The notes beneath the pieces were generated by a model. That model searched no databases. It saw only the letters and a program-made list of their open reading frames with translations, and was not told the DNA's origin. 64,000 bases of DNA from Caldimonas thermodepolymerans (GTDB lineage Bacteria > Pseudomonadota > Gammaproteobacteria > Burkholderiales > Burkholderiaceae_C): contig NZ_CP064338.1 of NCBI RefSeq assembly GCF_015476235.1, positions 248,001-312,000 on the forward strand, read 5' to 3'. Both the position numbers and the translations under genes were made by a program. Below, piece after piece: positions 49,998-63,901 of this stretch (position 1 is the first letter of the stretch; the number at the start of each line of letters is the position of its first letter).

Positions 49998-50978
49998 ATG
50001 AAGGACGATCGCCTGGTGGAGATGCGCATCTTCAAGGGTGTGGCGGAGACGGGCGGCTTCACGGCGGCGGCCGTGCGGCTGGGGGTGAGCCAGCCGGTGG
50101 TGAGCAGGGCCATCGCCTCGCTCGAGGCGCGCCTGGGCTGCAAGCTGCTGCACCGGTCCACCCGCATCCAGCGCCTGACGCAGGAAGGCGAGCGCTACCT
50201 GGCGCTGTGCACCCGCGTGCTCGACATGCTGGAGCAGGCCGAAGCCGAGATGCGCGCCGACGATCCGGTGGGCACGCTGCACGTCAGCGCGCCCCTGGCG
50301 TTCGGGCTGGACCAAGTCGTGCCCTGCCTGCCGGGCTTCCTGCAGGCCTACCCCCGGCTGTCGGTACACGTGTCGCTGACCGACGCGGTCGTGAACCTGA
50401 TCGGCAGCCACGTGGATGTGGCGATCCGCATGGGGCGCATCCACGACGGGACGCTGGTCAGCCGCAAGCTGTGCCACCTGCACCGCATCATCGTGGCCTC
50501 ACCTGCCTACCTCGCGCGCCACGGCACGCCCGTGACGCCGGCCAGCCTGGAGAGCGGCCAGCACAACTGCCTGCTGTGGGACGGCATGCACAAGCACCTG
50601 AACCGCTGGCCGCTGCGCATCAACGGGCGCATCGAGCACTTCGAGGCGCGCGGCAACTTCCACACCGACAACGGCAGCACGCTGTACCAGATGTGCGTGG
50701 CCGGCATGGGCATCATGCGCTTGGCCGAGCACCTGGCCCTGCCGGCATTGCGGCGTGGCGAGCTGGTGGAGATCCTGGCCGACTACAACGTGCGCGACGA
50801 TTCCTCGGCCATCCATGCCGTCTACCTGCACGGCAACCGCAACGCGCCGCGCGTGCGCGCCTTCGTGAACCACTGCGTCGAGTACTTCGCGAACCCCCCG
50901 TGGCTGCGCGACACGCCTCCGCCGGCAGCCGCCGGAGCCGCGATGTCGCGGGCGGTTGTCGAGGTGGCGTCGACCTGA
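49998..50978 (+). CDS. LysR family transcriptional regulator
   Basis: This 326-residue regulator has an N-terminal winged helix (FKGVAETGGFTAAAVRLGVS then QPVVSRAIASLEARLGCKLL, residues about 13-51) and a C-terminal substrate-binding domain. The start ATG 49998 follows AGAGGAG. It lies on the same strand and 146 bp ahead of the aldolase/TRAP genes, so it probably senses their substrate. The C-terminal tail is longer than usual and rich in Ala/Pro. Confidence 0.92.
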   Translation: MKDDRLVEMRIFKGVAETGGFTAAAVRLGVSQPVVSRAIASLEARLGCKLLHRSTRIQRLTQEGERYLALCTRVLDMLEQAEAEMRADDPVGTLHVSAPLAFGLDQVVPCLPGFLQAYPRLSVHVSLTDAVVNLIGSHVDVAIRMGRIHDGTLVSRKLCHLHRIIVASPAYLARHGTPVTPASLESGQHNCLLWDGMHKHLNRWPLRINGRIEHFEARGNFHTDNGSTLYQMCVAGMGIMRLAEHLALPALRRGELVEILADYNVRDDSSAIHAVYLHGNRNAPRVRAFVNHCVEYFANPPWLRDTPPPAAAGAAMSRAVVEVAST

Positions 50979-51124
50979 CGTCGCTCCCCCGCGTCCCTGG
51001 CGCGGACGCAGCCATCCATTCTGGCTGCGCATAAATGTTATCGGTGCCGCCGTATTGGTCCATGTCAAGGTCGTACCTATCGTCTGCACCTGACATCCAT
51101 CAACAACAAAGCAGGAGCACGACG
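50979..51124 (+). promoter_or_regulatory. Promoter region of the aldolase-TRAP operon
   Basis: This 146-bp spacer contains ATAAATGTTAT (51031-51041), a small inverted repeat resembling the T-N11-A LysR-binding pattern, in a locally AT-richer part. AGCAGGAG precedes the aldolase start. Assignment is tentative. Confidence 0.35.
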
Positions 51125-51970
51125 ATGACCGAGAACCTTGCCCGCGCGCCCGTGACCGCCGTAAAGCTCGCTGGCCGTGAATCGATCTATCAACCCGAGC
51201 AGCCGGGGTTGAAGTTCCCGAGCATCCCGACCTTCGAGACCAAGGCACAGCAGCGCCAGTACCTCAAGGAACGCCTCGTGGCGGCCTGCCGGGCGTTCGC
51301 GCAGCACGGTCTGGACTACGGCTTTGCCGGCCACCTGACAGTGCGCGATCCGGAGTTCCCGGAGCTGTACTGGACCAACCCGATGGCGGTGCACTTTGCG
51401 CAGGTCAAGGTGAGCAACTTGATCCTGGTCGACCACAAGGGCAAGGTGCTCGAAGGCGGCTATGCGGTCAACCGTGCCGGCTTCGTGCTCCACGCCGCGG
51501 TGCATGCCGCCAACCCGGACATCGTCGCGATGTGCCATGCGCACACGGAGTACGGCACGGCGTTCGCCGCGCTGGGCAAGCCACTCGCGCCGCTGTCGCA
51601 GGACGCTGCCGCCTTCTTCGAGGACCATGTCGTGATCCGCGAGGAAGCCGGCCAGGTGGCCGTGGAGACGCAGGCCGGCAGCTCGGTGTGCGACAAGTTC
51701 CGCGGCGTGAAGGCGGCCATCCACCAGAACCACGGCCTGTTCACGGTGAGTCGCCACAGCATCGACTCGGCCGCGTTCTGGTTCATCGCGCTGGAGCGTT
51801 GCTGCAAGCAGCAGCTGATGATCGAGGCCACGGGCCAGCAGCCGGTGCTGGTGTCGCCCGAGCGCTCGCGCTACAGCCGCGAGCACGTCGGCAGCGAGTA
51901 CATCGGCTGGCTGCACTTCCAGCCGATCTACGAGCACCTCGCGGCCACCCAGCCTGACATGTTCGAGTGA
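51125..51970 (+). CDS. Class II aldolase/adducin family protein
   Basis: This 281-residue protein has the aldolase II fold, which uses a divalent metal. Family marks are YGFAGHLTVRDPEFP, YWTNPMAVHFAQV, the metal ligands His-x-His in MCHAHTEYG and a later NHGLF. Such enzymes cleave or decarboxylate phosphosugars or 2-keto acids; many related proteins with this longer N-terminus are uncharacterised. It sits between a LysR regulator and the DctQMP genes and so likely acts on the acid brought in by that transporter. Confidence 0.87.
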   Translation: MTENLARAPVTAVKLAGRESIYQPEQPGLKFPSIPTFETKAQQRQYLKERLVAACRAFAQHGLDYGFAGHLTVRDPEFPELYWTNPMAVHFAQVKVSNLILVDHKGKVLEGGYAVNRAGFVLHAAVHAANPDIVAMCHAHTEYGTAFAALGKPLAPLSQDAAAFFEDHVVIREEAGQVAVETQAGSSVCDKFRGVKAAIHQNHGLFTVSRHSIDSAAFWFIALERCCKQQLMIEATGQQPVLVSPERSRYSREHVGSEYIGWLHFQPIYEHLAATQPDMFE

Positions 51971-52061
51971 CGGCCACGACGCGGTTTTCCCATAACAACA
52001 AGGCGCAACCTCGATTGCGCCGGGGCGGCCGGCCCGAGTGGCCGGCCTGCAAGGAGACGCT

Positions 52062-52643
52062 ATGCAAACCATCGTCAGGGGCTGGTTCCGCCTCCTGAAC
52101 ATCACCCTCGTGGCCTGCCTGGGCGCCATGGTGGTCCTGGTGTTCGGCAACGTTGTGTTGCGCTACGCCTTCAATTCCGGACTGGAAGTCTCCGAGGAGC
52201 TGTCGCGGCTCCTGTTCCTGATCAGCACCTTCCTTGGCGCCATCGTCGCGATGCGCGAACGCCTGCACCTGGGCGTGGACAGCCTGGTGCGCCGGCTGGG
52301 CCACCGCGGGCGCATCGCATGCCTGGTGCTGAGCCAGCTGGGCATGCTGGGCTGCACCGGCCTGCTGCTGGTGGGCAGCTGGCAGCAGATGGTGATCAAC
52401 CTCGACACGACGATGCCGGTGACCGGCGTCTCGATGGCGATCTTCTACGGCACCGGCGTCGTGTTCGGCATCTCCGTCGGGTTGATGCTGCTGCATGACC
52501 TGTACCGGGCGCTGACCGGTCACCTTGCCGAGGACGAGGCGGTGATCGTGCAGGCCAGCGAGGACGGCGACATGGACGCCCTCGCACAGGCATCGGCGGC
52601 CAAGGCCGGCGGAGGGGTGGTCAAGCAGGAGGCCCTGTCATGA
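52062..52643 (+). CDS. dctQ: TRAP transporter small membrane subunit DctQ
   Basis: This 193-residue protein has four hydrophobic segments and the DctQ marks VFGNVVLRYAFNSGLEVSEELS and LHLGVDSLV. A charged C-terminal tail of about 45 residues is extra. ATG 52062 has AAGGAG 7 bp upstream. Its stop overlaps the dctM start (ATGA). Confidence 0.94.
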   Translation: MQTIVRGWFRLLNITLVACLGAMVVLVFGNVVLRYAFNSGLEVSEELSRLLFLISTFLGAIVAMRERLHLGVDSLVRRLGHRGRIACLVLSQLGMLGCTGLLLVGSWQQMVINLDTTMPVTGVSMAIFYGTGVVFGISVGLMLLHDLYRALTGHLAEDEAVIVQASEDGDMDALAQASAAKAGGGVVKQEALS

Positions 52644-53923
52644 TGGTGCTGGCGATGTTCCTCGGGTCCCTGCTGGTGCCCATCGCGCTGGGCATGCCCA
52701 TCGCGTATGCCCTGCTGATCAGCGGCGCGACGCTGATGTGGCACCAGGACATGTTCGATGCGCAGATCGTCGCGCAGAACCTCATCAACGGGGCGGACAG
52801 CTTCCCGCTGATGGCGGTGCCCTTCTTCCTGCTGGCCGGCGAGATCATGAACGTGGGCGGCCTGTCGCGCCGCATCGTCGACGTCGCGATGGCCCTGGTG
52901 GGTCACATCCGCGGTGGGATGGGCTACGTGATCATCGTGGCCGGCTGCATGCTGTCCGCGTTGTCGGGCTCGGCGGTGGCCGATGCGGCGGCGCTGTCGG
53001 CCCTGATGCTGCCGATGATGATGCGCGCCGGCTACGACAAGGCCTCCACCGGCGGCCTGATCGCCGCCACCAGCATCATCGGGCCGATCATCCCGCCGTC
53101 GATCGGCTTCATCATCTTCGGCGTGACCGGCGGGGTTTCCATCACCCGGCTGTTCCTCGCCGGTATCGTCCCGGGCCTCGTGATCGGCATCGCGCTGGCC
53201 GCCGCTTGGTACTGGCAGACCCGCGGCACCGCCCTGAGTCCGATGCCGCGCCAGCCTTGGGCGTCCGTCGTGAAGGCGGTGATCAGCGGGTTCTGGGCCC
53301 TGCTGCTGCCGGTGATCATCGTCGTGGGCCTGCGCTTCGGCGTGTTCACGCCGACCGAGGCGGCGGTGGTCGCGGCCGTGTACGCGCTCCTGGTCTCGGT
53401 GCTGGTATACCGCGAGATGGACATGAAGGCGCTGGTCCACGCGATGCTCGCCACGGCCAGGATGAGCGCAACGGTGATGTTCCTGATCGCCGCGGCGATG
53501 GTGGCGGCGTGGATGATCACGGTGGCCGAGCTGCCGGACATCGTGGTGGAGCTGCTCGCACCGCTGATCGGCTCGCCGCGGCTGCTGATGCTGGCCATCG
53601 TCACGCTGCTGCTGGTCGTCGGCATGGCGATGGACATGATCCCGATGATCCTCATCCTGACGCCGGTACTGCTGCCGGTGGTGAAGCAGGCCGGCATCGA
53701 CCCGGTCTACTTTGGCGTGGTCTTCATCGTGGCCTGTTCGATCGGCCTCATCACCCCGCCGGTCGGATCGGTGCTCAACGTGGTGCGCAGCGTCTCGCGC
53801 CTCGACATGGAGGAGATCGTCAAGGGTGTCTGGCCTTTCCTGATCGTCGAGGTCGCCGTGCTGTACCTGCTCGTGTTCTTCCCTGGACTGGTCACCGTGC
53901 CGGCGCGCTGGTTCGCGGGTTGA
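52640..53923 (+). CDS. dctM: TRAP transporter large membrane subunit DctM
   Basis: This 427-residue protein has about 12 hydrophobic segments and DctM marks (PLMAVPFFLLAGEIMNVGGL, GSAVADAAALSALMLPMM, IGPIIPPSIGFIIFGV and SIGLITPPVGSVLNV). With DctQ it forms the secondary transporter driven by Na+. It starts at ATG 52640 overlapping dctQ. Confidence 0.96.
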   Translation: MMVLAMFLGSLLVPIALGMPIAYALLISGATLMWHQDMFDAQIVAQNLINGADSFPLMAVPFFLLAGEIMNVGGLSRRIVDVAMALVGHIRGGMGYVIIVAGCMLSALSGSAVADAAALSALMLPMMMRAGYDKASTGGLIAATSIIGPIIPPSIGFIIFGVTGGVSITRLFLAGIVPGLVIGIALAAAWYWQTRGTALSPMPRQPWASVVKAVISGFWALLLPVIIVVGLRFGVFTPTEAAVVAAVYALLVSVLVYREMDMKALVHAMLATARMSATVMFLIAAAMVAAWMITVAELPDIVVELLAPLIGSPRLLMLAIVTLLLVVGMAMDMIPMILILTPVLLPVVKQAGIDPVYFGVVFIVACSIGLITPPVGSVLNVVRSVSRLDMEEIVKGVWPFLIVEVAVLYLLVFFPGLVTVPARWFAG

Positions 53924-53960
53924 TCCTTCCTCCACATTCCAAACCATGAAGGAGACTTGC

Positions 53961-54980
53961 ATGAAGAAGTTGTTGAAGACCCTGGCCCTGGGCATGCTCC
54001 TGCCGGCGTTCATGGCTGCGAGCCAGGTCCATGCCGCGGACATCAAGAACCGCACGCTGCGCTTCTCGCACGTGCAGCCCAAGGAAAGTCACATGGGCTA
54101 TGGCGTGGAGCAGTTCGCCAAGCGCGTGCGCGAGAAGAGCGACGGCAAGATCAACATCCGCATCTTCCACAACGGCACGCTGGGCGGCGACATCCAGACC
54201 CTGTCTGCGCTGCAGGGGGGCACGATCGACATGACAACCATGCCGCCCGGGCTGATGGTGGGCCTGTCGGCCGAATACGGCGTGTTCGACATCCCCTTCC
54301 TGTTCCAGGACTTCCGCGAGGCCGACGCGGTGCTGGATGGCCCGCTGGGCAAGAAGATGATGGAGCGCCTGCCGCGTGGCCTGGTCGGCCTGGCCTACTG
54401 GGACCACGGCTTCCGCAACCTGTCGAACAACAAGCGCCCGATCGCGAAGCTGGAGGACATCCAGGGCCTGAAGCTGCGCGTGCTGCAGGCCCCGCTGATG
54501 CTCGACACCTTCAAGGCGCTGGGTGCCAACGCGGTGCCGCTGCCATTCACCGAGCTGTTCACGGCGATGGAGACCAATGCGGTGGACGGGCAGGACAATC
54601 CCATCGTTGCCTTCGAGACCAACAAGTTCTACGAGGTGCAGAAGCACCTGTCCAGCACCCGCCACGTCTACAACCCGCTGATCGTGCTGGTCTCGCAGGC
54701 GAGCTGGAACAAGCTGACGCCGGACGAGCAGAAGCTGCTGCGCGAGGCGGCAGAGGAAGTGCGCGCCGACCAGCGCAAGGTCTCGCGCGAGATGGAGGCC
54801 AAGGCCATCGAGAAGGCAAAGCAGCACGGCACCATCTACACCGACATCACTCCGCGGGAGCGCGCGCGCATGGCGCAGGCGGTCGCGCCGGTGATCGCGC
54901 AGCACAAGCAGCAGATCGGCGCCGCGCTGGTCGACGAGTTCCTCGCCGAAGTGGCGAAGGTGCGCCAACAGCAGCAGTGA
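53961..54980 (+). CDS. dctP: TRAP transporter substrate-binding protein DctP
   Basis: This 339-residue periplasmic protein has a signal peptide (KKLLKTLALGMLLPAFMAAS, cleaved near VHAAD) and the DctP fold. Marks are FSHVQPKESHMGYGVEQFAK, FHNGTLGGDIQTLSALQGG, LKLRVLQAPLMLDTFKALG (Arg that binds the carboxylate) and AVDGQDNP. The carboxylate substrate is not known; neighbours (class II aldolase) suggest a sugar acid or hydroxy acid. ATG 53961 follows AAGGAG; an in-frame ATG at 53946 is less likely. Confidence 0.94.
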   Translation: MKKLLKTLALGMLLPAFMAASQVHAADIKNRTLRFSHVQPKESHMGYGVEQFAKRVREKSDGKINIRIFHNGTLGGDIQTLSALQGGTIDMTTMPPGLMVGLSAEYGVFDIPFLFQDFREADAVLDGPLGKKMMERLPRGLVGLAYWDHGFRNLSNNKRPIAKLEDIQGLKLRVLQAPLMLDTFKALGANAVPLPFTELFTAMETNAVDGQDNPIVAFETNKFYEVQKHLSSTRHVYNPLIVLVSQASWNKLTPDEQKLLREAAEEVRADQRKVSREMEAKAIEKAKQHGTIYTDITPRERARMAQAVAPVIAQHKQQIGAALVDEFLAEVAKVRQQQQ

Positions 54981-55059: not shown

Positions 55060-55590
55060 TCAGAATAGCTGGTCCACGGCGCGCCGGATCCCGCCGTACC
55101 CCGTGCAGCGGCACAGGTGGCCGCACAGCAGCTCGCTGGCCTCGCTGGCGCTGGGCCGCGGTTGCTGCTGGTGCAGGTGGGTCAGCGTCATCACGAAGCC
55201 GCCGGTGCAGTAGCCGCATTGCAGGCCGCCACAGGTGGCCAGCGCCTCGCGCACCGGCGCGCTTTCGGGGCGCTGCGCGACCGCCTCGATGGTCGTCACG
55301 CGCCGGCCCGCCAGCTGCCAGGCCATCACGAGGCAGGCGTTGGCCGGCACGTCGTCCAGCCACACCATGCAGGCGCCGCAGCGGCCGACCTCGCAGCCGG
55401 GCTTGGCGCCGGTGAGGCCGAAGTCCTCGCGCAGCAGCGACAGCAGCCGGCGCGTCGGCGCGCAGCGAACGTGCACTGCCTGCCCGTTCAGTTCGAAGGA
55501 CACCTCGACCTCGGCCGGGGTGTCGGACTCGCCTGCCGTGGCGGTACCGGGGGCTTGCGATGCGGGCTCGGTGAGCGTCGCGGTGGTCAT
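55060..55590 (-). CDS. Molybdenum hydroxylase [2Fe-2S] subunit
   Basis: This 176-residue protein of the xanthine-dehydrogenase small-subunit type carries two iron-sulfur clusters. The N-terminal ferredoxin cluster ligands are Cys66, 71, 74 and 86 (KPGCEVGRCGACMV), and the C-terminal cluster is bound by CGYC (about 125-128) and HLCRCTGY (about 160-162). It is the last gene of the operon and overlaps the large subunit by 4 bp. A Thr/Ala/Ser-rich N-terminus of about 25 residues precedes the domain. The reductase partner chain is complete with the FAD and Mo subunits. Confidence 0.94.
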   Translation of the reverse strand: MTTATLTEPASQAPGTATAGESDTPAEVEVSFELNGQAVHVRCAPTRRLLSLLREDFGLTGAKPGCEVGRCGACMVWLDDVPANACLVMAWQLAGRRVTTIEAVAQRPESAPVREALATCGGLQCGYCTGGFVMTLTHLHQQQPRPSASEASELLCGHLCRCTGYGGIRRAVDQLF

Positions 55591-57875
55591 GGGTTTTGCT
55601 CCAGGTAATCCAGCACGGTGTCGGGCCTGATGGGCAGGCGGTCCACCGGCATGCCGATCGCGGCGGTCACGGCGTTGGCGACCGCCGGCGCGGCGATGTT
55701 GACGCTGATCTCGCCGGCGCCGCGCGGGCCGATCTCGTCGCCCTCCATGAGGTTCTCGATCGCGGTGACGTCGTAGCGCGGGGCGTCGGCCAGCGTGGGC
55801 ACGAGGTAGCCGTCGAGGTTGCGCGCCAGGTAGCGGCCCTCGCGCGTCGGCAGGTCCTCGGTCGTCGCCAGTCCCTGGCCCATCAGCGCACCGCCTTCCA
55901 TCTGGCCGAGGAAACCCATGCGCGAGGCGACCGGGCCGAGCGCAGCGGCGATCGCGAGGTGCTCGACGCGCACCGCGCCGGTCCAGGTGTCCACGCAGAC
56001 CTGCGCGGCGGCGGCGCAGGCGCCGAACACGTAGTGCGCGGCGTCGATCGCGCTGGGCGTTTCCTCGCCGGGCAGCTCGATCTCCAGGTGCGGCAGTGGC
56101 GTGCCGGCGGCGGCAAGGCGCTGTGCCAGCTCGGCGTAGCGCAGCACGCAGGCTTGGCCCGCATGCCAGCCGCCAGGGCCCCAGCGCAGCGTCTGCGCCG
56201 GCACGCCCAGCACGTCGGCTGCCAGCGCGGTCAGGCGCGCGGCCCAGTCCGGGCCGTGGCGGTGCAGCGCGCGGTGCACCAGCGTGGTCGAGCGCGAGGC
56301 CGAGGCCGGACCGGTGTCGGGGGCCTGCGCCGAGTCGCCCAGCACCGGGCGCACGTCGTCCTCGCTGCAGCCGAGCTGCCGCGCGACGATGGCGCGCGTG
56401 GCGCCCAGCAGGTTCTGCCCCATCTCGGTGAGGCTGGCGCGCAGCTCGATGCGCCCGTCGGCACCGAGGGCCAGCGCCAGGCGCGCGCCGTTGGGGCCAC
56501 CGCGGCCGAAGCCGTCGCTGCGGTGCACCAGGGCCAGGCCCACTCCCCGGCGGAAGCGTGCGTCGGCGGCGGGGTCGGCCGCGCGTTGCGCCGCCTCGCG
56601 CCACAGCGGGTGCTGCGCGATCACGTCCAGCGCGCGGTGCGGCCCGTCGAAGGGCGCGACCACCTGGCCCATCGGGCCCGGCGCGTCGGGGGCGGCGAGG
56701 TTGCGGCGGCGGAACTCGACCGGCCCCAGGCCGCTGGCGCGCGCGAGCCGGTCGATCTGCTGCTCGAGCGCGAACTGCACCTGCACCGCACCGAAGCCGC
56801 GGAAGGCGCCGGCGATGCCGTTGTTGGTGTAGGCCAGCCGCCCCTGCACCTCGACCGCGTCGTAGGCATAGGGGCCCACCGCGTGTTCGATGGCCGCGTC
56901 CAGCACCTCGGGGCCGTGCGTCGCGTAGGCGCCGGTGTCGGCGAGGATGTCGACCTGCTGGAAGCGCAGCCGCCCTTCGGCATCGCAGCCGGTGCGCATG
57001 CGCATGCGCATCGGGTGGCGCTTGACGCCAAGGTCGGTGGAGGCCGGGCGGCTCAGGTGCAGGCGCACCGCGCGGCCGCTCTTCCACGCCAGCAGCGCGG
57101 CGATGGGCTGGATGGTCAGCTCGTCCTTGGCGCCGTAGGAGCCGCCCACCGGCATGCCGACCGCGCGCACCTTGTCGGGCGGCAGGCGCAGCATCGCGGC
57201 GATCACCTGCCGGTCGCGCTCGGGGTTCTGGCAGCCGAAGTACAGGGTCAGGCCGCCTTGCCCGTCCGGCTCGGCCACGCCCCCTTCGGTTTCCAGCGTC
57301 ACGTGCATCTGGCGCGGGCTTTCGTAGACGGCCTCGACGACATGCACGCAGGCGGCCTGCGCCGCGGCCAGGTCGCCGCGCTGCAGGCGCGCGGCATGTA
57401 GCAGGTTGCCGTTGGCGCGGTCCTCGTGCAGCTTCGGTGCCTCGGGCGCGAGCGCAGCCTCGGGGTCGTCGACCACGGGCAGCGGTTCGAGTTCGAGGCG
57501 GATCGCGGCCAGCGCCGCACGGGCGATCTCGGGGGTCTCGGCCGCGACCGCGGCGATGGGGTCGGCGATGCAACGCACCTTGTCGGCACACAGCACGGGG
57601 CGGTCCACGTGGCGCAGGCCGTAGTGCGTGTCGCCGGGGATGTCGGCCGCGGTGACGACCGCGTGCACGCCGGGCAGCGCGCGCGCGGCCGAGACGTCCA
57701 GCGTCACGATGCGCGCATGGGGCAGCGGGCTGCCGAGGATGGCGCCGTGCAGCTGGCCCGGCGCGATGCGGTCGGTCAGGTAGCCGGGATGGCCGGTGAG
57801 CTTGGCCGCGGCGTCGGGGCGCGGCTCGCGGGCGGCGACCAGCGCCGCATGGTCGAGGAGTCGGTGCGGCGTCAT
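55587..57875 (-). CDS. Molybdenum hydroxylase large subunit (xanthine-dehydrogenase family, Mo-cofactor)
   Basis: This 762-residue protein has the N-terminal hammerhead domain (AKLTGHPGYLTDRI, GQLHGAILGSPLPHARIV) and the Mo-cofactor domain (MPVGGSYGAKDE, GAFRGFGAVQVQFALE). The catalytic glutamate is in EIGPRGAGEISVN near the C-terminus. The substrate is not clear from sequence: xanthine, hypoxanthine, nicotinate and related N-heterocycles are all oxidised by this family, and the substrate-pocket arginine could not be assigned reliably. It overlaps the FAD and FeS subunit genes by 4 bp each. Confidence 0.92.
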   Translation of the reverse strand: MTPHRLLDHAALVAAREPRPDAAAKLTGHPGYLTDRIAPGQLHGAILGSPLPHARIVTLDVSAARALPGVHAVVTAADIPGDTHYGLRHVDRPVLCADKVRCIADPIAAVAAETPEIARAALAAIRLELEPLPVVDDPEAALAPEAPKLHEDRANGNLLHAARLQRGDLAAAQAACVHVVEAVYESPRQMHVTLETEGGVAEPDGQGGLTLYFGCQNPERDRQVIAAMLRLPPDKVRAVGMPVGGSYGAKDELTIQPIAALLAWKSGRAVRLHLSRPASTDLGVKRHPMRMRMRTGCDAEGRLRFQQVDILADTGAYATHGPEVLDAAIEHAVGPYAYDAVEVQGRLAYTNNGIAGAFRGFGAVQVQFALEQQIDRLARASGLGPVEFRRRNLAAPDAPGPMGQVVAPFDGPHRALDVIAQHPLWREAAQRAADPAADARFRRGVGLALVHRSDGFGRGGPNGARLALALGADGRIELRASLTEMGQNLLGATRAIVARQLGCSEDDVRPVLGDSAQAPDTGPASASRSTTLVHRALHRHGPDWAARLTALAADVLGVPAQTLRWGPGGWHAGQACVLRYAELAQRLAAAGTPLPHLEIELPGEETPSAIDAAHYVFGACAAAAQVCVDTWTGAVRVEHLAIAAALGPVASRMGFLGQMEGGALMGQGLATTEDLPTREGRYLARNLDGYLVPTLADAPRYDVTAIENLMEGDEIGPRGAGEISVNIAAPAVANAVTAAIGMPVDRLPIRPDTVLDYLEQNP

Positions 57876-58705
57876 GCGGAATGCGGCAGGCGTCGGTTCA
57901 GGTGCCCCAGCAGCAGGCGCGCGGCCAGGCGCACGCGCTGCGGGTCGGTGTCGTCGTGCAGGTCCTGCTGCAGCGCGGCGCGCAGGTCCCCGGCCCGCGC
58001 GGGCAGGCTGCGGCAGTCGGCGCCATCCAGCACCGCCTCCGCCCTTGCCAGGCGCCGTGCCGGCAACGCCGCGGCCGTGGCCGCCAGTCGCAGCCCGTGC
58101 AGCCGGCCGTGCGCCAGCTGCGCGCGGATCGCGAGCGCCAGCCGCGACGGGCTGAAGGCCGCGCGGGCGCCGACCTTCTCGTAGACGGCGACCGGCGCGG
58201 CGGCCGGCAGCGGCACGCGCACCGCGCGCACCAGCGGCAGCACGGGGCGGCGCAGCACCTCGGCGAGCGGCCGCGGCACGGGGTCGGTGTCGACCTCGGC
58301 TTCGGCGTCCAGCGCCAGCAGCGCGGCCAGGGTGTCACCCCAGCGCCAGCCGATGTTGCCGCCCAGCGTGGCCAGGTGCCGCACCGACAGCGCGCCGAGC
58401 GCATCCAGCGCCTGCGCGAGCAGCGGCGCGTGCGCGCGCACCCGCGCATCGGTGCGCAGCGCCTCCAGGCGCGTCGCCGCACCCAGGTGCAGCATGCCGT
58501 CATGCAGCGCGACACCCGCGGGCACCGCGCCCTGCGTGACATCGATCAGCGTCATCGCGGGGGGCGGCTGCTCCACGCCCCAGGCCAGCTGCAAGGCGGT
58601 GCCGCCGCCGACATAGGCGACGGGCACTGCAGAAGGCGCCTGCCGCCAGGCCACCGCCAGCGCGGCGGTGGGCGGCACCTTCACGGCGGGAGTCGACACG
58701 GACAC
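57872..58705 (-). CDS. Molybdenum hydroxylase FAD-binding subunit
   Basis: This 277-residue protein has the FAD-binding PCMH-like fold of xanthine dehydrogenase subunits (VAYVGGGTALQLAWG, about 28-42; SVRHLATLGGNIGW, about 106-119) and the CODH-type C-terminal domain. The start is a GTG at 58705 (MSVSTPAV). It is followed by a 4-bp overlap with the large subunit and preceded by 13 bp from the deaminase gene. The acceptor may be NAD+ or a quinone; this cannot be told. Confidence 0.92.
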   Translation of the reverse strand: MSVSTPAVKVPPTAALAVAWRQAPSAVPVAYVGGGTALQLAWGVEQPPPAMTLIDVTQGAVPAGVALHDGMLHLGAATRLEALRTDARVRAHAPLLAQALDALGALSVRHLATLGGNIGWRWGDTLAALLALDAEAEVDTDPVPRPLAEVLRRPVLPLVRAVRVPLPAAAPVAVYEKVGARAAFSPSRLALAIRAQLAHGRLHGLRLAATAAALPARRLARAEAVLDGADCRSLPARAGDLRAALQQDLHDDTDPQRVRLAARLLLGHLNRRLPHSA

Positions 58706-58718
58706 GGCGGCCTCCGTC

Positions 58719-59231
58719 TCAGCGCCGTGCCCAGAAGGCGCGCTGCAGGCTGACGATCTCGGGCACCACCTCGGGCACCGGGCCGATCAGCTCCACCGGC
58801 TTCTGGCAGTGGTCGAAGACGTAGCGCGAGGACACGCTCATCGTCGGGTTCTCCGCGTGGTCGCCGGTGGCTTCCAGCAGCATGGCCTCGGTCATGCCGT
58901 ACACCACGCGGCCGATGTTGGCCCAGTACGCGGTGCCCGAGCACATGCAGCAGGGCTCGACCGAGGTGTAGAGCGTGCAGGTCCAGAGGAACTCGGGCGT
59001 GTAGTTGGTCGCGGCGATGCGCGCCAGCGTCGATTCGGCGTGGTTGACCGTGTCGATGTTGCACTGCTCGAGCAGCACGGTCTCGTGGTCGGGGCCGACC
59101 AGGATCGCGCCGAACGGATGGTGGCCGAGCGCGACGGCACGCTGGGCGACTTCGTTGGCGCGCCGCAGGTGCCTGACGATCTGCTCGCGCGTCGGCGCGG
59201 TGCGGGCGGCGGCGGTGAGGGTCTGGGTCAT
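58719..59231 (-). CDS. Guanine-deaminase-like nucleobase deaminase
   Basis: This 170-residue zinc enzyme of the cytidine/deoxycytidylate-deaminase superfamily has the zinc ligands His64 with catalytic Glu66 (TVNHAEST) and Cys94/Cys97 (VEPCCMCSGTAYWA). The surrounding sequence resembles GuaD-type guanine deaminases more than tRNA deaminases. Guanine would give xanthine, a possible substrate for the oxidase encoded next to it, but the actual base is not proven. It is 24 bp downstream of the permease gene in the same operon. Confidence 0.87.
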   Translation of the reverse strand: MTQTLTAAARTAPTREQIVRHLRRANEVAQRAVALGHHPFGAILVGPDHETVLLEQCNIDTVNHAESTLARIAATNYTPEFLWTCTLYTSVEPCCMCSGTAYWANIGRVVYGMTEAMLLEATGDHAENPTMSVSSRYVFDHCQKPVELIGPVPEVVPEIVSLQRAFWARR

Positions 59232-59255
59232 GGCGGTGGAATCAGTCAGTCGGGG

Positions 59256-60005
59256 TCAGGCGCTCCAGGAGAAGAAGCGCTTGTGCACGCCGACGATCAG
59301 GCCGTAGAGCGCGAGGCTGCAGCTCACGAGGATGGCCAGCGACGCGAACGCCACGGGCACCTTGAACGACGAGGTGGCGAACAGGATCAGGTAGCCCAGG
59401 CCCTTCTCGGCGGCGACGAACTCGGCCACCACCGCGCCGATCACCGACAGCGTGATCGCCACCTTCAGCGACGAGAAGATGTAAGGCACCGCGTAGGGCA
59501 CGCGGATCTGCGTGTATTCGCGGATGCGCGGCGCGCGCAGCGTGCGCGACAGCTCGATCAGCTCCGCGGGCACCGAGGCCAGGCCGGTGGCGGTGGAGAT
59601 CACGATGGGGAAGAAGGCGATCAGCGTCGTGATGACCACGCGCGGCAGCGTGCCCGCGCCCAGCGTGACGACGATGATCGGCGCGATCGCGACGATGGGG
59701 GTGGACTGGATCACCACCAGCCACGGCAGCAGCGTGCGCGACAGCAGCGGAGACTTGGTGATGCCCACCGCCAGCGGCAGGGCGATGGCGATGGCCACCA
59801 GGTAGCCGGAGATGGCCACCTCCAGCGTGGCGAGCAGGTGTTCGAGCCAGCGCGCCACGCCCAGCTCGCGCGCTGCGCTGGCGATGGCGCTGGGCGCGGG
59901 CAGCACGTAGACGGGCAGCTGGAACGCGCGGGCGGCGATCTCCCACAGCAGCAGCACGAGGAGGAAGGCCCACAGCGAGGCGTATCGGGACAGGAAGGCG
60001 CGCAT
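59256..60005 (-). CDS. NitT/TauT-type ABC transporter permease
   Basis: This 249-residue permease has six hydrophobic segments with the SsuC/TauC marks VLPAPSAIASAA, VVIQSTPIVAIAPIIVV and the EAA loop ELSRTLRAPRIREYTQIRVP. It starts at ATG 60005, 27 bp after the ATPase stop. With the ATPase and binding protein it forms a complete importer for the operon's substrate. Confidence 0.93.
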   Translation of the reverse strand: MRAFLSRYASLWAFLLVLLLWEIAARAFQLPVYVLPAPSAIASAARELGVARWLEHLLATLEVAISGYLVAIAIALPLAVGITKSPLLSRTLLPWLVVIQSTPIVAIAPIIVVTLGAGTLPRVVITTLIAFFPIVISTATGLASVPAELIELSRTLRAPRIREYTQIRVPYAVPYIFSSLKVAITLSVIGAVVAEFVAAEKGLGYLILFATSSFKVPVAFASLAILVSCSLALYGLIVGVHKRFFSWSA

Positions 60006-60032
60006 GGTGGATCAGGCGAAGGGCGTGCGGGG

Positions 60033-60881
60033 TCAGGCCGGCTTGCGGGTGAAGACCTTGAGGCGGATCTCGTTGGCCAGCTCGTTGAACACGGGGTCGT
60101 TGAGGGTCGCGAGGCTGCGCGGGCGCGGCAGCGGCACGTCGATGATCTCGGCCACGCGCCCCGGGCGCGCGCTCATCACGACGATGCGGTCCGACAGCAG
60201 CAGCGCTTCCTGGATCGAGTGCGTGACGAACACCACGGTCTTGGGGCGTTCGCCCCAGATGCGCAGCAGCTCGAAGCTCATCTCGTCGCGCGTGAGCGCA
60301 TCCAGCGCCGAGAACGGCTCGTCCATCAGCAGGATGTCCGGGTCGTGCAGCAGCGAGCGCGCGATCGCGACGCGCTGCTGCATGCCGCCGGACAGCTCGG
60401 TCGGCCGCTTGTGGCCGAAGTCCTTGAGCCCGATCATCTGCAGCAGCTCCTGCGCGCGGGCCTGGTCGCGGGCGTCGACGCGGCCGTACTTGTGCCGCAT
60501 CGGGAAGGTGATGTTGTCCAGCACGCTGAGCCACGGCAGCAGCGTCGGCTTCTGGAACACCATGCCCAGCTCGTCGCGCGGCTCGGTGACTTCCAGGCCG
60601 AAGATCGACACCCGGCCCTCGGTGGGGCGCAGCAGCCCCGAGATCAGGCGCAGGATGGTCGACTTGCCGCAGCCCGACGGGCCGATCAGCGAGACGAACT
60701 CGTGGCGGCGCAGCGCGAGGTTGACGCCCTGCAGCGCCTGCACGCGGCTGCCGTCGCTGGAATGGAAGGCCATGCCGACGTCCTGCAGCTCGATCACGCG
60801 CGCCTCGGGCGCCGGGGCGGCGGGCGCGTGCTGCGCGGGCAGGTCCAGGTCAAGGGGCTTCACGGAAACAGGGGCCAGCAT
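60033..60881 (-). CDS. NitT/TauT-type ABC transporter ATP-binding protein
   Basis: This 282-residue ATPase has a Pro/Ala-rich N-terminal extension, Walker A GPSGCGKST (about 68-76), Q-loop MVFQKPTLLPWL, signature LSGGMQQRVAIA and Walker B LLMDEPFSALDAL. It resembles SsuB/TauB and ThiZ. Start ATG 60881 lies 46 bp after the binding-protein stop. Confidence 0.94.
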   Translation of the reverse strand: MLAPVSVKPLDLDLPAQHAPAAPAPEARVIELQDVGMAFHSSDGSRVQALQGVNLALRRHEFVSLIGPSGCGKSTILRLISGLLRPTEGRVSIFGLEVTEPRDELGMVFQKPTLLPWLSVLDNITFPMRHKYGRVDARDQARAQELLQMIGLKDFGHKRPTELSGGMQQRVAIARSLLHDPDILLMDEPFSALDALTRDEMSFELLRIWGERPKTVVFVTHSIQEALLLSDRIVVMSARPGRVAEIIDVPLPRPRSLATLNDPVFNELANEIRLKVFTRKPA

Positions 60882-60927
60882 GAACCATCCAATCCAGGGA
60901 AAACGAAACGGGCGAAGCGGGAACGGC

Positions 60928-61914
60928 TTACTTGCTCAGGAAGCGGCGGTCGACGAGGGTCTCGGGGTCGACCTTGTCCTGCGGGTAGTTCATGGACTTG
61001 GCCACCCAGGTCCAGGTCGCGGCCAGCAGCTTGGGCTCGAAGGTGCCCAGGCCGTCGCGCTTGGAGATCTCGTTGTCGATCAGCGGGATCGAGGAACGGA
61101 ACTCGGCCGCGATCACGGCCGGATCGGATTCGGGCACCAGCGCCTTGTGGTCCTCGGCCGCCTTCTCGGGGTTGGCGATCGCGAACTGCAGCGACTTCTG
61201 CAGCGCACGCAGGTAGCGCTTGAGCACCTCGGGGCGCTCCTTGATCATCCTGTCGCTGGCAAAGGCCGACCAGCCGTAGCCGTCCAGGCCCGCGGCCGAC
61301 CACGGCAGCACGTTCAGTTCCTTGCCGGCCTGCTTGAGCACGCTCTCGGCGGCCGGGCCGACGGTGACCCAGTTGATCGTCGCATCCACGCGGCCCTGCG
61401 CGAGCATGGGCGCGAGCGTGGCCGGGTCGACCTTGAGCAGCTTGACCTTGGACGCGTCGATGCCGTTGGCCTCCAGGATCACCGGCCACAGCGTGTTGCT
61501 CGACGAGAAGGTCGAGGTCGCGACGGTCTTGCCGACCACGTCCTTCAGGCTCTTGATGCTGCTGCCCTTGGTCGTGAAGATCGCGTCGGGCTGCTTGGCG
61601 TAGATCGACATCACGGCCTTGACCGGCACGCCGCCTTCGGCTGCGGCCATCATCAGCGCGGAGATGCCGCCGAAGCCGACGTCGGCCGAGCCGGAGGCGA
61701 TCTTGGTGACCGCATCGGCCGAGCCGCGGCCCGGCACGATGGTGACCTCCAGGCCTTCGGCAGCGAAGAAGCCTTCCTTCACGCCGGCATAGACGAACGA
61801 CTTGTCGCCGCCGGGCAGCCAGTCGAGCTGCACCGTGACCTTGTCGGCAGCGTGGGCCGTCCAGGCCGCAGCCGACAGCAGCAGGGCAACGAGGGTGCGA
61901 GCGGGAGCTTTCAT
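60928..61914 (-). CDS. NMT1/THI5-like ABC transporter substrate-binding protein
   Basis: This 328-residue periplasmic protein has a signal peptide (ARTLVALLLSAAAWTAHAAD). The mature part starts VTVQLDWLPGGDKSFVYAG and has EGFFAAEGLEVTIVPGRGSA, the family marks of NitT/TauT and thiamine-pyrimidine binding proteins. Related proteins bind nitrogen heterocycles such as pyrimidines, which fits the deaminase and oxidase genes of the operon. Start ATG 61914; an ATG at 61929 is in frame. A perfect tandem 13-bp repeat lies just upstream (61968-61993). Confidence 0.93.
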   Translation of the reverse strand: MKAPARTLVALLLSAAAWTAHAADKVTVQLDWLPGGDKSFVYAGVKEGFFAAEGLEVTIVPGRGSADAVTKIASGSADVGFGGISALMMAAAEGGVPVKAVMSIYAKQPDAIFTTKGSSIKSLKDVVGKTVATSTFSSSNTLWPVILEANGIDASKVKLLKVDPATLAPMLAQGRVDATINWVTVGPAAESVLKQAGKELNVLPWSAAGLDGYGWSAFASDRMIKERPEVLKRYLRALQKSLQFAIANPEKAAEDHKALVPESDPAVIAAEFRSSIPLIDNEISKRDGLGTFEPKLLAATWTWVAKSMNYPQDKVDPETLVDRRFLSK

Positions 61915-61967
61915 CGAACTTTCCTTCAATCGAGACTAAGAGGGGGGCGGGTCAGCAGGTCGAATCC

Positions 61968-61993
61968 GAGGGGTTCAGTCGAGGGGTTCAGTC
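61968..61993. repeat. Tandem 13-bp duplication between two operon genes
   Basis: GAGGGGTTCAGTC occurs twice in direct succession, in the 95-bp spacer between the hydrolase and binding-protein genes. Confidence 0.9.
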
Positions 61994-62009
61994 AGCAGGG
62001 CGCCGTGCG

Positions 62010-62843
62010 TCAGGCGGCATCACGGGCGAGCGCGGCATCGGCCGCGACCCACCCGTCCAGCAGCGGCAGCAGCCGCGCGGAGAGCTCAGCCGGCGCGGCG
62101 AGCTGGGGCACGTGGCCGCAGTCCAGCGTGATGCGCACGGCGCCTGGCGTGAGCGCCTGCATCTTTCTCTGCAAGGTCAATGCCACCGAGCGGTCCTGCG
62201 TGCACTCGACGTACGCACGTCGCACCTTTCCGGCGCGCTGCGGAGTCCACACCGGGTGCATCGCACGCCCGCTTTCGGGCTGTGCGCACAACAACGACGC
62301 AGCGCGCTGCGCGGCCTGCGCCTCGCAGTCGTGCAGGAAGATCTCCAGCGCCGCCTCGGGGGGCACGCGGCTGGCGCTGCGCGCCTCGTTCCAGACCAGG
62401 TGCGGCGCGATGCCCGAGAAGTCGCGCCCGGGCTGTTCGCCCTCGCAGGCGCGCAGCACGTCGCGGTAGGTCCAGCGGGAGGGCAGCATCATCCCGGCGA
62501 GGTAGACCACGCCGCTCAGGCGCTCGGCCAGTTCCTCGGCGACCTGGGTCGCGGTGATGCCGCCGCCGCTGTGGCCGAGCACCACGATGGGGCCTGCGAG
62601 CGGGCGTATCACCTCGCACACGTGCGCCACATAGGTGCGCAGGCCGGGCGATGCCTCCTGTTGGGGCGAATGTGCGCTGCCCGGCAGGTCGACCGCGTGC
62701 ACGGTCCAGCCGTCGGCCTCCAGGTACGGCCGCCAGGCGTCGAAGGCCCAGCTGCCTTGCCAGGCGCCGTGGATCAGCACGAGGTGCTTCGCGGCCGTCG
62801 GATCGATGCGGGAGGGCATGGCGAGGGCGTTGCGTTTAGCCAT
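62010..62843 (-). CDS. Alpha/beta hydrolase (esterase type)
   Basis: This 277-residue enzyme has the oxyanion/His-Gly segment LVLIHGAWQGSWAF, nucleophile elbow VVLGHSGGGI (Ser about 92), acid near WTPQRAG... and His about 244 in CGHVPQL. It resembles small-molecule methylesterases and hydrolases rather than lipases. Its start overlaps the oxygenase gene by 8 bp, so the two are translated together. It is probably a catabolic hydrolase for a product of the operon's pathway. Confidence 0.85.
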   Translation of the reverse strand: MAKRNALAMPSRIDPTAAKHLVLIHGAWQGSWAFDAWRPYLEADGWTVHAVDLPGSAHSPQQEASPGLRTYVAHVCEVIRPLAGPIVVLGHSGGGITATQVAEELAERLSGVVYLAGMMLPSRWTYRDVLRACEGEQPGRDFSGIAPHLVWNEARSASRVPPEAALEIFLHDCEAQAAQRAASLLCAQPESGRAMHPVWTPQRAGKVRRAYVECTQDRSVALTLQRKMQALTPGAVRITLDCGHVPQLAAPAELSARLLPLLDGWVAADAALARDAA

Positions 62844-63798
62844 AGGTGCGCCGGTAGCAGTCGCGCTGGTGCTGCTCCACCGTCACCGGCGGGTACTTGG
62901 GCGATTCGCCTTCCTTCAGGCAGCCGGGCAGGCAGGACACGACATGCGCCAGGTTGCCGGTGAAGAAGAACGGGATGGAGTGCCGCTCGCGCCCCGAGGT
63001 GTTGATCACGCGGTGCAGCGTCGAGCGGTAGCGGTCGTTGGTCCAGCGCCCGAACAGGTCGCCGATGTTGACCACGTAGCAGCCCGGCAACGGCGGCGCG
63101 TCGATCCAGCGGCCGGCGCGCGCGTCCCACACCTGCAGGCCGCCGCAGTCGTCCTGCGCCAGCAGCGTGATGCCGCCGAAGTCGGTGTGCGCGCCGCAGC
63201 CCTTCTCGCCGGGCGCGGGGTTGGGCGGCTGCGGCGGGTAGTGCAGCAGGCGCAGCGTCGCGGCGCCGTCGGCCAGGTAGTCGTCGAAGTAGCCCTCGGG
63301 CAGCTCCAGCGAGGCGCCCAGCGCGCGCACCACGTCGGCGGCCAGCGCGTAGGCGGCGTCGAAGTAGGCCGTCATCACGGCGCGGAAGCCGGGCAGGCCC
63401 TCGGGCCAGAGGTTGGGGCCGGTGTTGAAGCGGCCGGCCCGCACGCGCGGGTCGTCGGGCGGCACCTCGCGGCCGATGTAGAAGCTTTCCTTCAGGTCCG
63501 GCGGCGCGCCGGCCTCCAGCACCTGCGCGCGCAGCGGCTCGTAGCCGCGGTTGCAGGGCGAGCGCGACTTGTCCACGCGCAGCTTGGCCTGCATCGGCTG
63601 GTCGAAGAAGGCCTGCGACTGGGCGAAGGCCTCGGCCAGCAGGTCGGCCGGGATGCCGTGGTGGCGCAGGTAGAAGAAGCCGTGGTGTTCGCAGGCGGCG
63701 CGCAGCGCGGCAGCCACGGCGCGGCGCGCGTCGGGGCGGTCGCTGTACCACCCGGCAAAGTCGATCACCGGCAGCGAGGCAGAGGCGAAGTTCGTCAT
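62836..63798 (-). CDS. 2-oxoglutarate/Fe(II)-dependent oxygenase (isopenicillin-N-synthase-like family)
   Basis: This 320-residue enzyme (from ATG 63798) has the DIOX_N domain ([32 protein letters not shown]) and the 2OG-FeII_Oxy domain. The iron ligands are His204, Asp206 and His262 ([16 protein letters not shown]) and the 2-oxoglutarate-binding Arg is in RHS (about 272-274). ATG 63798 is preferred because it puts LPVIDF at the usual distance; in-frame ATG 63810 and GTG 63834 are alternatives. It is the first gene of the leftward nine-gene operon. Members of this family hydroxylate varied small molecules; fungal thymine 7-hydroxylase is one precedent for a nucleobase substrate. Confidence 0.88.
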
Positions 63799-63801
63799 CG
63801 T

Positions 63802-63834
63802 GTGAAGCATCAACGAGGGGCGTCGATGCTTCAC
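63802..63834. promoter_or_regulatory. Inverted repeat at the oxygenase start
   Basis: GTGAAGCATC (63802-63811) and GATGCTTCAC (63825-63834) are exact reverse complements around a 13-nt loop. It is immediately upstream of the preferred start codon 63798 and overlaps the alternative starts. It may be an operator or a leader hairpin. Confidence 0.55.
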
Positions 63835-63880
63835 TCTAAGGAGCCGTGCGTGATCGCGATAGCAGAGAATTCTGCGCGGG

Positions 63881-63901
63881 GTGATGCCGAAACGGCATCA
63901 C
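63881..63901. promoter_or_regulatory. Perfect palindrome upstream of the oxygenase/oxidase operon
   Basis: GTGATGCCG and CGGCATCAC flank AAA in a 9-3-9 perfect palindrome, 83-103 bp before the preferred start. A dimeric regulator, perhaps encoded just beyond the right edge, would be its natural user. The inner half GATGC/GCATC recurs in the second palindrome at 63802-63834. Confidence 0.55.

Follow-up and report, generated by a model that had tools for sequence, protein, structure and literature searches.

A conserved nine-gene operon of Caldimonas thermodepolymerans as a candidate route for taking up and oxidizing a guanine-type purine

A 64,000-nucleotide stretch of the Caldimonas thermodepolymerans genome (contig NZ_CP064338.1, positions 248,001 to 312,000), referred to here as the window, carries nine closely packed minus-strand genes (55060–63834), all reading leftward, for a 2-oxoglutarate (2OG)/Fe(II) oxygenase, an alpha/beta hydrolase, a three-part importer, a deaminase and a three-subunit molybdenum enzyme. 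On balance, we lean towards an operon for importing a purine base of the guanine type, possibly a guanine with a modification such as alkylation, and oxidizing it towards urate. A so far undescribed pathway that leads modified guanines, such as methylguanines released when RNA or DNA is turned over, to urate is a more tentative proposal and a somewhat doubtful one. The purine class of the substrate, a guanine-type deaminase and a PucD-like molybdenum enzyme are predictions supported by sequence and gene neighborhood; we infer the exact substrate, the reactions of the oxygenase and hydrolase and the order of the steps. The original prediction had favored an N-heterocycle of the purine or pyrimidine type, and the purine type is supported by the purine genes that neighbor the deaminase, the LysR–oxygenase pairs and the whole clusters in other genomes.

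The same prediction had proposed looking for this neighborhood elsewhere, and it does recur. A scan for relatives of the deaminase gave 336 coding places, of which the best 80 loci were kept (locus labels, L, are our own), and ten of these hold the whole set in the same order: L046, L052, L059, L067, L077, L089, L091, L093, L099, and L103, from Stutzerimonas, Variovorax, Parazoarcus, two Ideonella, Verticiella, Corticibacter, Comamonas, Herbaspirillum, and Cupriavidus. With genome G146 (L155) the other carriers come to eleven, and all carriers together amount to about a dozen proteobacteria from several families. The shared order is LysR, oxygenase, hydrolase, binding protein, ATPase, permease, FAD subunit, Mo subunit and iron–sulfur (FeS) subunit, with the deaminase gene between the permease and FAD genes or, in L046, L059, and L093, after the FeS gene. 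The L093 cluster is without LysR, and that of L099 stops at a contig end after the FAD gene with no Mo gene in reach. FAD and Mo subunits form one reading frame in L155 (5351–8755), in L170 (8245–11217, a 45% relative) and in L192 (2993–4981). The gene order recurs beyond chance, and the set is sparse in the order to which Caldimonas belongs: the binding protein (E ≤ 1e-90) was found in at least 4 of 399 genomes and the hydrolase (E ≤ 1e-45) in at least 3 of 300, the window genome included in both, these counts being lower bounds that come from scoring part of each genome's first-look candidates. The LysR gene lies directly upstream of the operon on the same strand, just past the window end (10005–10946 of L007, the locus that holds the operon and extends past that end), and belongs to the conserved unit.

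The deaminase (58719–59231, 170 aa) is assigned from family profiles, an alignment and a structure model (mean pLDDT 92) with a CDA fold, and the zinc motif of this fold, HAE...PCxxC, is invariant across 34 aligned rows. It probably acts on a guanine-type base, judging from its sequence and the company of its relatives. At 72–86% identity, its relatives neighbor BMP transporters, XdhAB and, read by eye, CodA/Upp. A first clustering placed the BMP binding-protein family in 27 of the 80 loci, and XdhB matches occurred in 4 of 21 (L047, L068, L092, and L095), the latter loci being hand-chosen (25 less 4 not yet in the gene set) and not giving a rate. In L100 an 8-oxoguanine deaminase above its cut-off adjoins the deaminase, with CodA and Upp again read by eye, and relatives 58–61% identical occur among urate genes in L150, L158, and L166 (gene names by eye). 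On plasmids, relatives 51–72% identical adjoin NCS2 permeases, and another, 71% identical, sits with BMP, Rieske, and hpxO genes.

Xanthine riboswitches provide a further link with purines. The NMT1 RNA (RF03054) is a xanthine riboswitch, whose downstream genes include IPNS-like (isopenicillin N synthase-like) dioxygenases, NMT1/TauA transporters and, rarely, tadA-like deaminases; in that study (Yu and Breaker, 2020; PMC7373994) the functions of the dioxygenases that occur with purine genes are described as not established. For two of the full clusters, genes with xanthine riboswitches lie no more than 5 kb away: in L059 such a set lies about 4.6 kb downstream, and in L077 the cluster is placed between a riboswitch-flanked set (a second deaminase, a binding protein and another 2OG oxygenase) and a urate operon. 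RF03054 also precedes pairs of binding protein and oxygenase genes in L150, L151, L152, and L156, and a Rieske gene in L153; the model search did not find it in L157 or L161. As a separate observation, a set of binding protein, 2OG oxygenase and glyoxalase-like genes recurs in L150, L151, L152, L153, L156, and L157, with xanthine riboswitches in five of the six; some of these sets have a Rieske oxygenase or a second deaminase close by, and NdmA and NdmB are relatives of the L150 Rieske protein.

The molybdenum enzyme comprises an FeS subunit ([2Fe-2S], 55060–55590, 176 aa), a Mo subunit (55587–57875, 762 aa) and a FAD subunit (57872–58705, 277 aa), which score best against PucE, PucD, and PucC, respectively, yet under the cut-offs of those models. 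At the columns of XdhB Glu232 and Arg310 (Rhodobacter capsulatus numbering), four XdhB sequences have Glu/Arg, whereas all 11 cluster Mo sequences have Asp/Ala and so depart from the XdhAB type. The 11 share the PucD pattern of Asp at 232, no Arg at 310, Phe344 and Glu730. The Bacillus subtilis PucD copy, read in pieces, has Asp/Phe at the first two columns; at the Phe459 column the clusters have Phe and the PucD piece Leu (by eye). The enzyme can be called PucD-like because its active-site columns follow PucD and not XdhB. PucD serves xanthine oxidation in B. subtilis, so the differences from XdhB are no argument against xanthine as a substrate; the missing Glu232 and Arg310 were considered as such an argument and dropped, since PucD is without them too.

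Canonical purine enzymes are encoded elsewhere in the window genome. In one locus (L163) genes for guanine deaminase (503 bits; cut-off 375), XdhA (614; cut-off 467) and XdhB (1168; cut-off 850) lie together with one for a BMP binding protein, and another locus (L160) holds urate oxidase, PuuE, OHCU decarboxylase, and a family match to HIU hydrolase; GuaD, XdhA, XdhB, PuuE, and urate oxidase are all above cut-off and outside the operon. As the original prediction had remarked, the nine genes include no xdhC; a gene that is XdhC-like by eye lies beside xdhAB at L163 11375–12208. Since the genome encodes guanine deaminase, XdhAB and a urate pathway separately, the operon would be a second route of the guanine/xanthine type, which favors a specialized substrate, plain redundancy being possible. 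A role of the oxygenase and hydrolase in place of urate oxidase and HIU hydrolase was also considered, and was dropped because the genome has urate oxidase, the HIU hydrolase match, OHCU decarboxylase, and PuuE. Redundancy would mean plain catabolism of guanine and xanthine to urate, for which the deaminase and molybdenum enzyme would suffice, with the oxygenase as an alternative hydroxylase of xanthine or hypoxanthine and the hydrolase in an accessory role; Yu and Breaker propose purines as the substrates of such dioxygenases (PMC7373994). We consider this explanation rather unlikely, for the genome already has the canonical enzymes, two xanthine hydroxylases in a single operon would be odd and the hydrolase, present in all 11 other clusters and paired elsewhere with the oxygenase or the deaminase, is probably a pathway enzyme. 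The original prediction had allowed that a deaminase and Mo subunit fitting only guanine and xanthine would make this ordinary purine catabolism: the two do look guanine- and xanthine-type, but the canonical enzymes lie elsewhere, and the oxygenase and hydrolase would be left unexplained.

The 2OG oxygenase (62836–63834, 332 aa) is IPNS-like by family profiles, and its model (pLDDT 90) matches IPNS-like enzymes, thymine 7-hydroxylase (T7H) among them, although T7H is not the nearest, being outranked by a reconstructed ethylene-forming enzyme, the top match. In a residue comparison it keeps the Fe triad and the 2OG-binding Tyr, Arg, and Ser of the T7H type, together with the base-stacking Phe292, an aromatic at 217, Asn87 and Arg190 (for the roles of the T7H residues see PMC4787775). 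In a tree of 33 rows covering ten of the twelve cluster oxygenases (all except those of L067 and L091), the cluster enzymes group with LysR-paired plasmid oxygenases, that of L186 and a second copy of the window genome (15 rows, support 98/96), and the other plasmid oxygenases and those of the binding protein–oxygenase sets form a separate group of 11 rows (support 100/99); the ten cluster rows alone group weakly (88/60). The LysR proteins beside the plasmid oxygenases are 44–51% identical to the window LysR, vs. 23–29% for nine other matching LysR proteins. The LysR paired with the oxygenase is 51% identical on a Pseudomonas putida plasmid, where hpxO is next door, 44% on an Acinetobacter plasmid, where hpxO is in the same region, and 44% on a Moraxella plasmid, where no hpxO is annotated in the stretch covered. 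The same-clade oxygenases beside or near hpxO in P. putida and Acinetobacter, in stretches with no annotated Mo-hydroxylase, also speak for plain catabolism as outlined above.

Relatives of the oxygenase likewise occur on plasmids, in ndm-like sets in P. putida and Klebsiella and next to Rieske genes on one of P. caffeinilytica, which would suit a methylxanthine (caffeine-type) catabolism resembling the alkylxanthine clusters. However, the window oxygenase falls in the other of the two clades, the genes of L007 have no match to the one Rieske oxygenase compared (from L150) and methylxanthines need no deaminase, so that we hold this to be very improbable. Purine/alkylxanthine gene sets were also seen on plasmids of Pseudomonas, Acinetobacter, Moraxella, and Klebsiella (L173, L174, L175, L176, and L180), those of the first three genera carrying 2OG oxygenases of two or three distinct clades near each other. 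The window genome itself has further oxygenases of this kind. The second copy, 53–54% identical to that of the window, lies in a set (L161, 2741–14844) with a NitT-like importer, a thiamine pyrophosphate decarboxylase-like enzyme, an aldehyde dehydrogenase and an amidohydrolase nearest to 8-oxoguanine deaminase but below its cut-off, and this set is possibly another purine-type pathway; two more are found in L162 (5897–10551), one of which precedes ABC transporter genes, sugar-type by eye.

The hydrolase (62010–62843, 277 aa; assigned by family profiles) has broad solved relatives (pyrethroid hydrolase, plant esterases and hydroxynitrile lyases), and on plasmids its best match reaches 37% identity. 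Its place in the route is suggested by partial clusters. Among the 80 loci, importer and deaminase occur together in seven Buttiauxella loci and one Halotalea locus, and hydrolase and deaminase in five Pseudacidovorax loci. The remaining 57 have no second gene of the nine at ≥50% identity within the stretch covered, weaker matches there including FeS (47%) and Mo (35%) subunits in L057 and an oxygenase (41%) in L098. L186 combines LysR, oxygenase and hydrolase with a BMP binding protein, L191 has the importer with FAD, Mo, and FeS genes and is without deaminase, oxygenase, hydrolase and LysR, and L192, with contig ends on both sides, has the importer, the deaminase and the fused FAD/Mo gene. 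This suggests modules that would work on one compound or on its successive products, around guanine and xanthine. In the route that we propose, the NitT importer would carry the base into the cell, the oxygenase would oxidize its modification and the hydrolase would finish the removal to give guanine, these two reactions being a guess; the deaminase would then convert guanine to xanthine, the PucCDE-like enzyme xanthine to urate, and urate would feed the genome's own urate pathway. The existence of oxygenase–hydrolase and hydrolase–deaminase pairs fits the placing of the first two enzymes before the deaminase. Such a front end, in which a modification is removed from guanine before deamination, is possible, though we would not bet on it.

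Several observations weigh against the proposed route. RF03054 is not at threshold in L007 beside the window operon and was not found in the window genome, in a search whose controls were silent; it is absent from five of the seven cluster loci searched (all but L059 and L077; L046, L089, and L099 lay outside the scope) and from a further seven loci, L103 among them. Riboswitch control of the window operon was accordingly dropped as a candidate. The equivalog cut-offs of PucC (TIGR03199, 91 of 306 bits), PucD (TIGR03196, 631 of 784) and PucE (TIGR03198, 165 of 254) are not reached. No formaldehyde-handling gene is among the nine, though demethylation might require one; L191 has importer and molybdenum enzyme without a deaminase, so the deaminase step would not always be needed; and T7H Glu122 and Asn294 are replaced in the window oxygenase by Tyr119 and Thr292. 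Finally, the nearest solved structure to the deaminase is not a guanine deaminase but Msmeg3575, which has triazine and azapyrimidine ligands and came first in both solved-structure comparisons, with GuaD (1wkq) lower in one and NE0047 lower in both. Taken with a binding protein (60928–61929, 333 aa) that is NMT1/THI5-like (PF09084, 152 bits) and resembles ThiY/THI5, and with the likeness of the oxygenase to T7H, this could indicate degradation of a non-purine N-heterocycle, namely a pyrimidine such as hydroxymethylpyrimidine, a pterin or an s-triazine-like compound. We find this improbable, given the purine genes beside the deaminase, the LysR–oxygenase pairs and whole clusters, and given that the NMT1/THI5-like annotation is, according to Yu and Breaker, a misleading one with regard to thiamin (PMC7373994). 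The thiamine-pyrimidine likeness of the binding protein, to which the original prediction had pointed, is a family resemblance; as a guide to the substrate it gives way to the neighborhoods, which point to purines.

With regard to layout, reading frames, families and spacing agree with the gene identities and the unbroken, tight leftward order described originally, except that the first gene, placed there from 63901, starts at 63834 (GTG) or 63810 (ATG) and that the start of the FeS gene is corrected to 55590. A gene caller based on hexamers and trained on this DNA scored all nine frames as coding, and families were labeled from Pfam and NCBIfam profiles. The spacing is operon-like: the FeS and Mo genes share 4 bp, the Mo and FAD genes 4 bp and the hydrolase and oxygenase genes 8 bp, with remaining gaps of 13, 24, 27, 46, and 80 bp. 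The NitT/TauT importer is complete in one unit, with the NMT1-type binding protein (TTG start, an ATG being present five codons in), a BPD permease of the NitT/TauT type (59256–60005, 249 aa) and an ABC ATPase (60033–60881, 282 aa), the latter two assigned by family profiles; the ABC parts and the deaminase are secure at the family level. A 960-aa hybrid sensor kinase (PAS/histidine kinase/receiver; L007 10956–13838) lies directly upstream of the LysR gene of the operon, and genes named by eye as LysR, class II aldolase-like and TRAP transporter adjoin the operon on the opposite strand (window 49998–54980).

The operon brings a relative of the IPNS-like oxygenases together with an importer, a hydrolase, a deaminase and a Mo hydroxylase; a widespread but uncharacterized kind of oxygenase is thereby placed in a probable purine pathway where its reaction becomes testable. 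If the modified-guanine reading is true, the operon would show how some bacteria use bases freed from methylated nucleic acids.

No named pathway for this gene combination was found in one open-access literature library, which upholds the original view that the combination is not a described one, but it has a partial precedent because the riboswitch gene sets list the same families (PMC7373994). Like those sets, the operon has an IPNS-like oxygenase, an NMT1/TauA binding protein and a tadA-like deaminase; unlike them, it has other paralogs of the oxygenase and deaminase and adds the Mo enzyme and the hydrolase. The NdmH enzymes, N2,N2-dimethylguanine hydrolases that turn this base into xanthine, are similar in being bacterial enzymes dedicated to a methylated guanine and leading to xanthine, and differ in belonging to the amidohydrolase family and in acting by one-step hydrolysis (PMC13054789); no such gene is among the nine. 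The plasmid LysR–oxygenase pairs of Pseudomonas, Acinetobacter, and Moraxella resemble the operon in their LysR (44–51%) and oxygenase (48–55%) genes lying side by side, whereas NCS2 and OmpK replace the NitT importer and no Mo enzyme or deaminase is annotated in the stretches covered. Alkylxanthine (ndmABCDE) clusters are alike in that similar plasmid sets hold a related oxygenase and purine uptake genes, and differ by an oxygenase of another clade and by the Rieske N-demethylases of the caffeine ndm cluster, the nine genes falling in other families. The B. subtilis puc system, with PucCDE and a CDA-fold guanine deaminase, shares the deaminase fold, the logic of guanine to urate and, at all key columns but those of Phe459 and Arg310, the residues of the Mo subunit. 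The operon departs from it in subunits that score below the Puc cut-offs, in the addition of a NitT importer, an oxygenase and a hydrolase, and in the gathering of all these genes into one operon with LysR.

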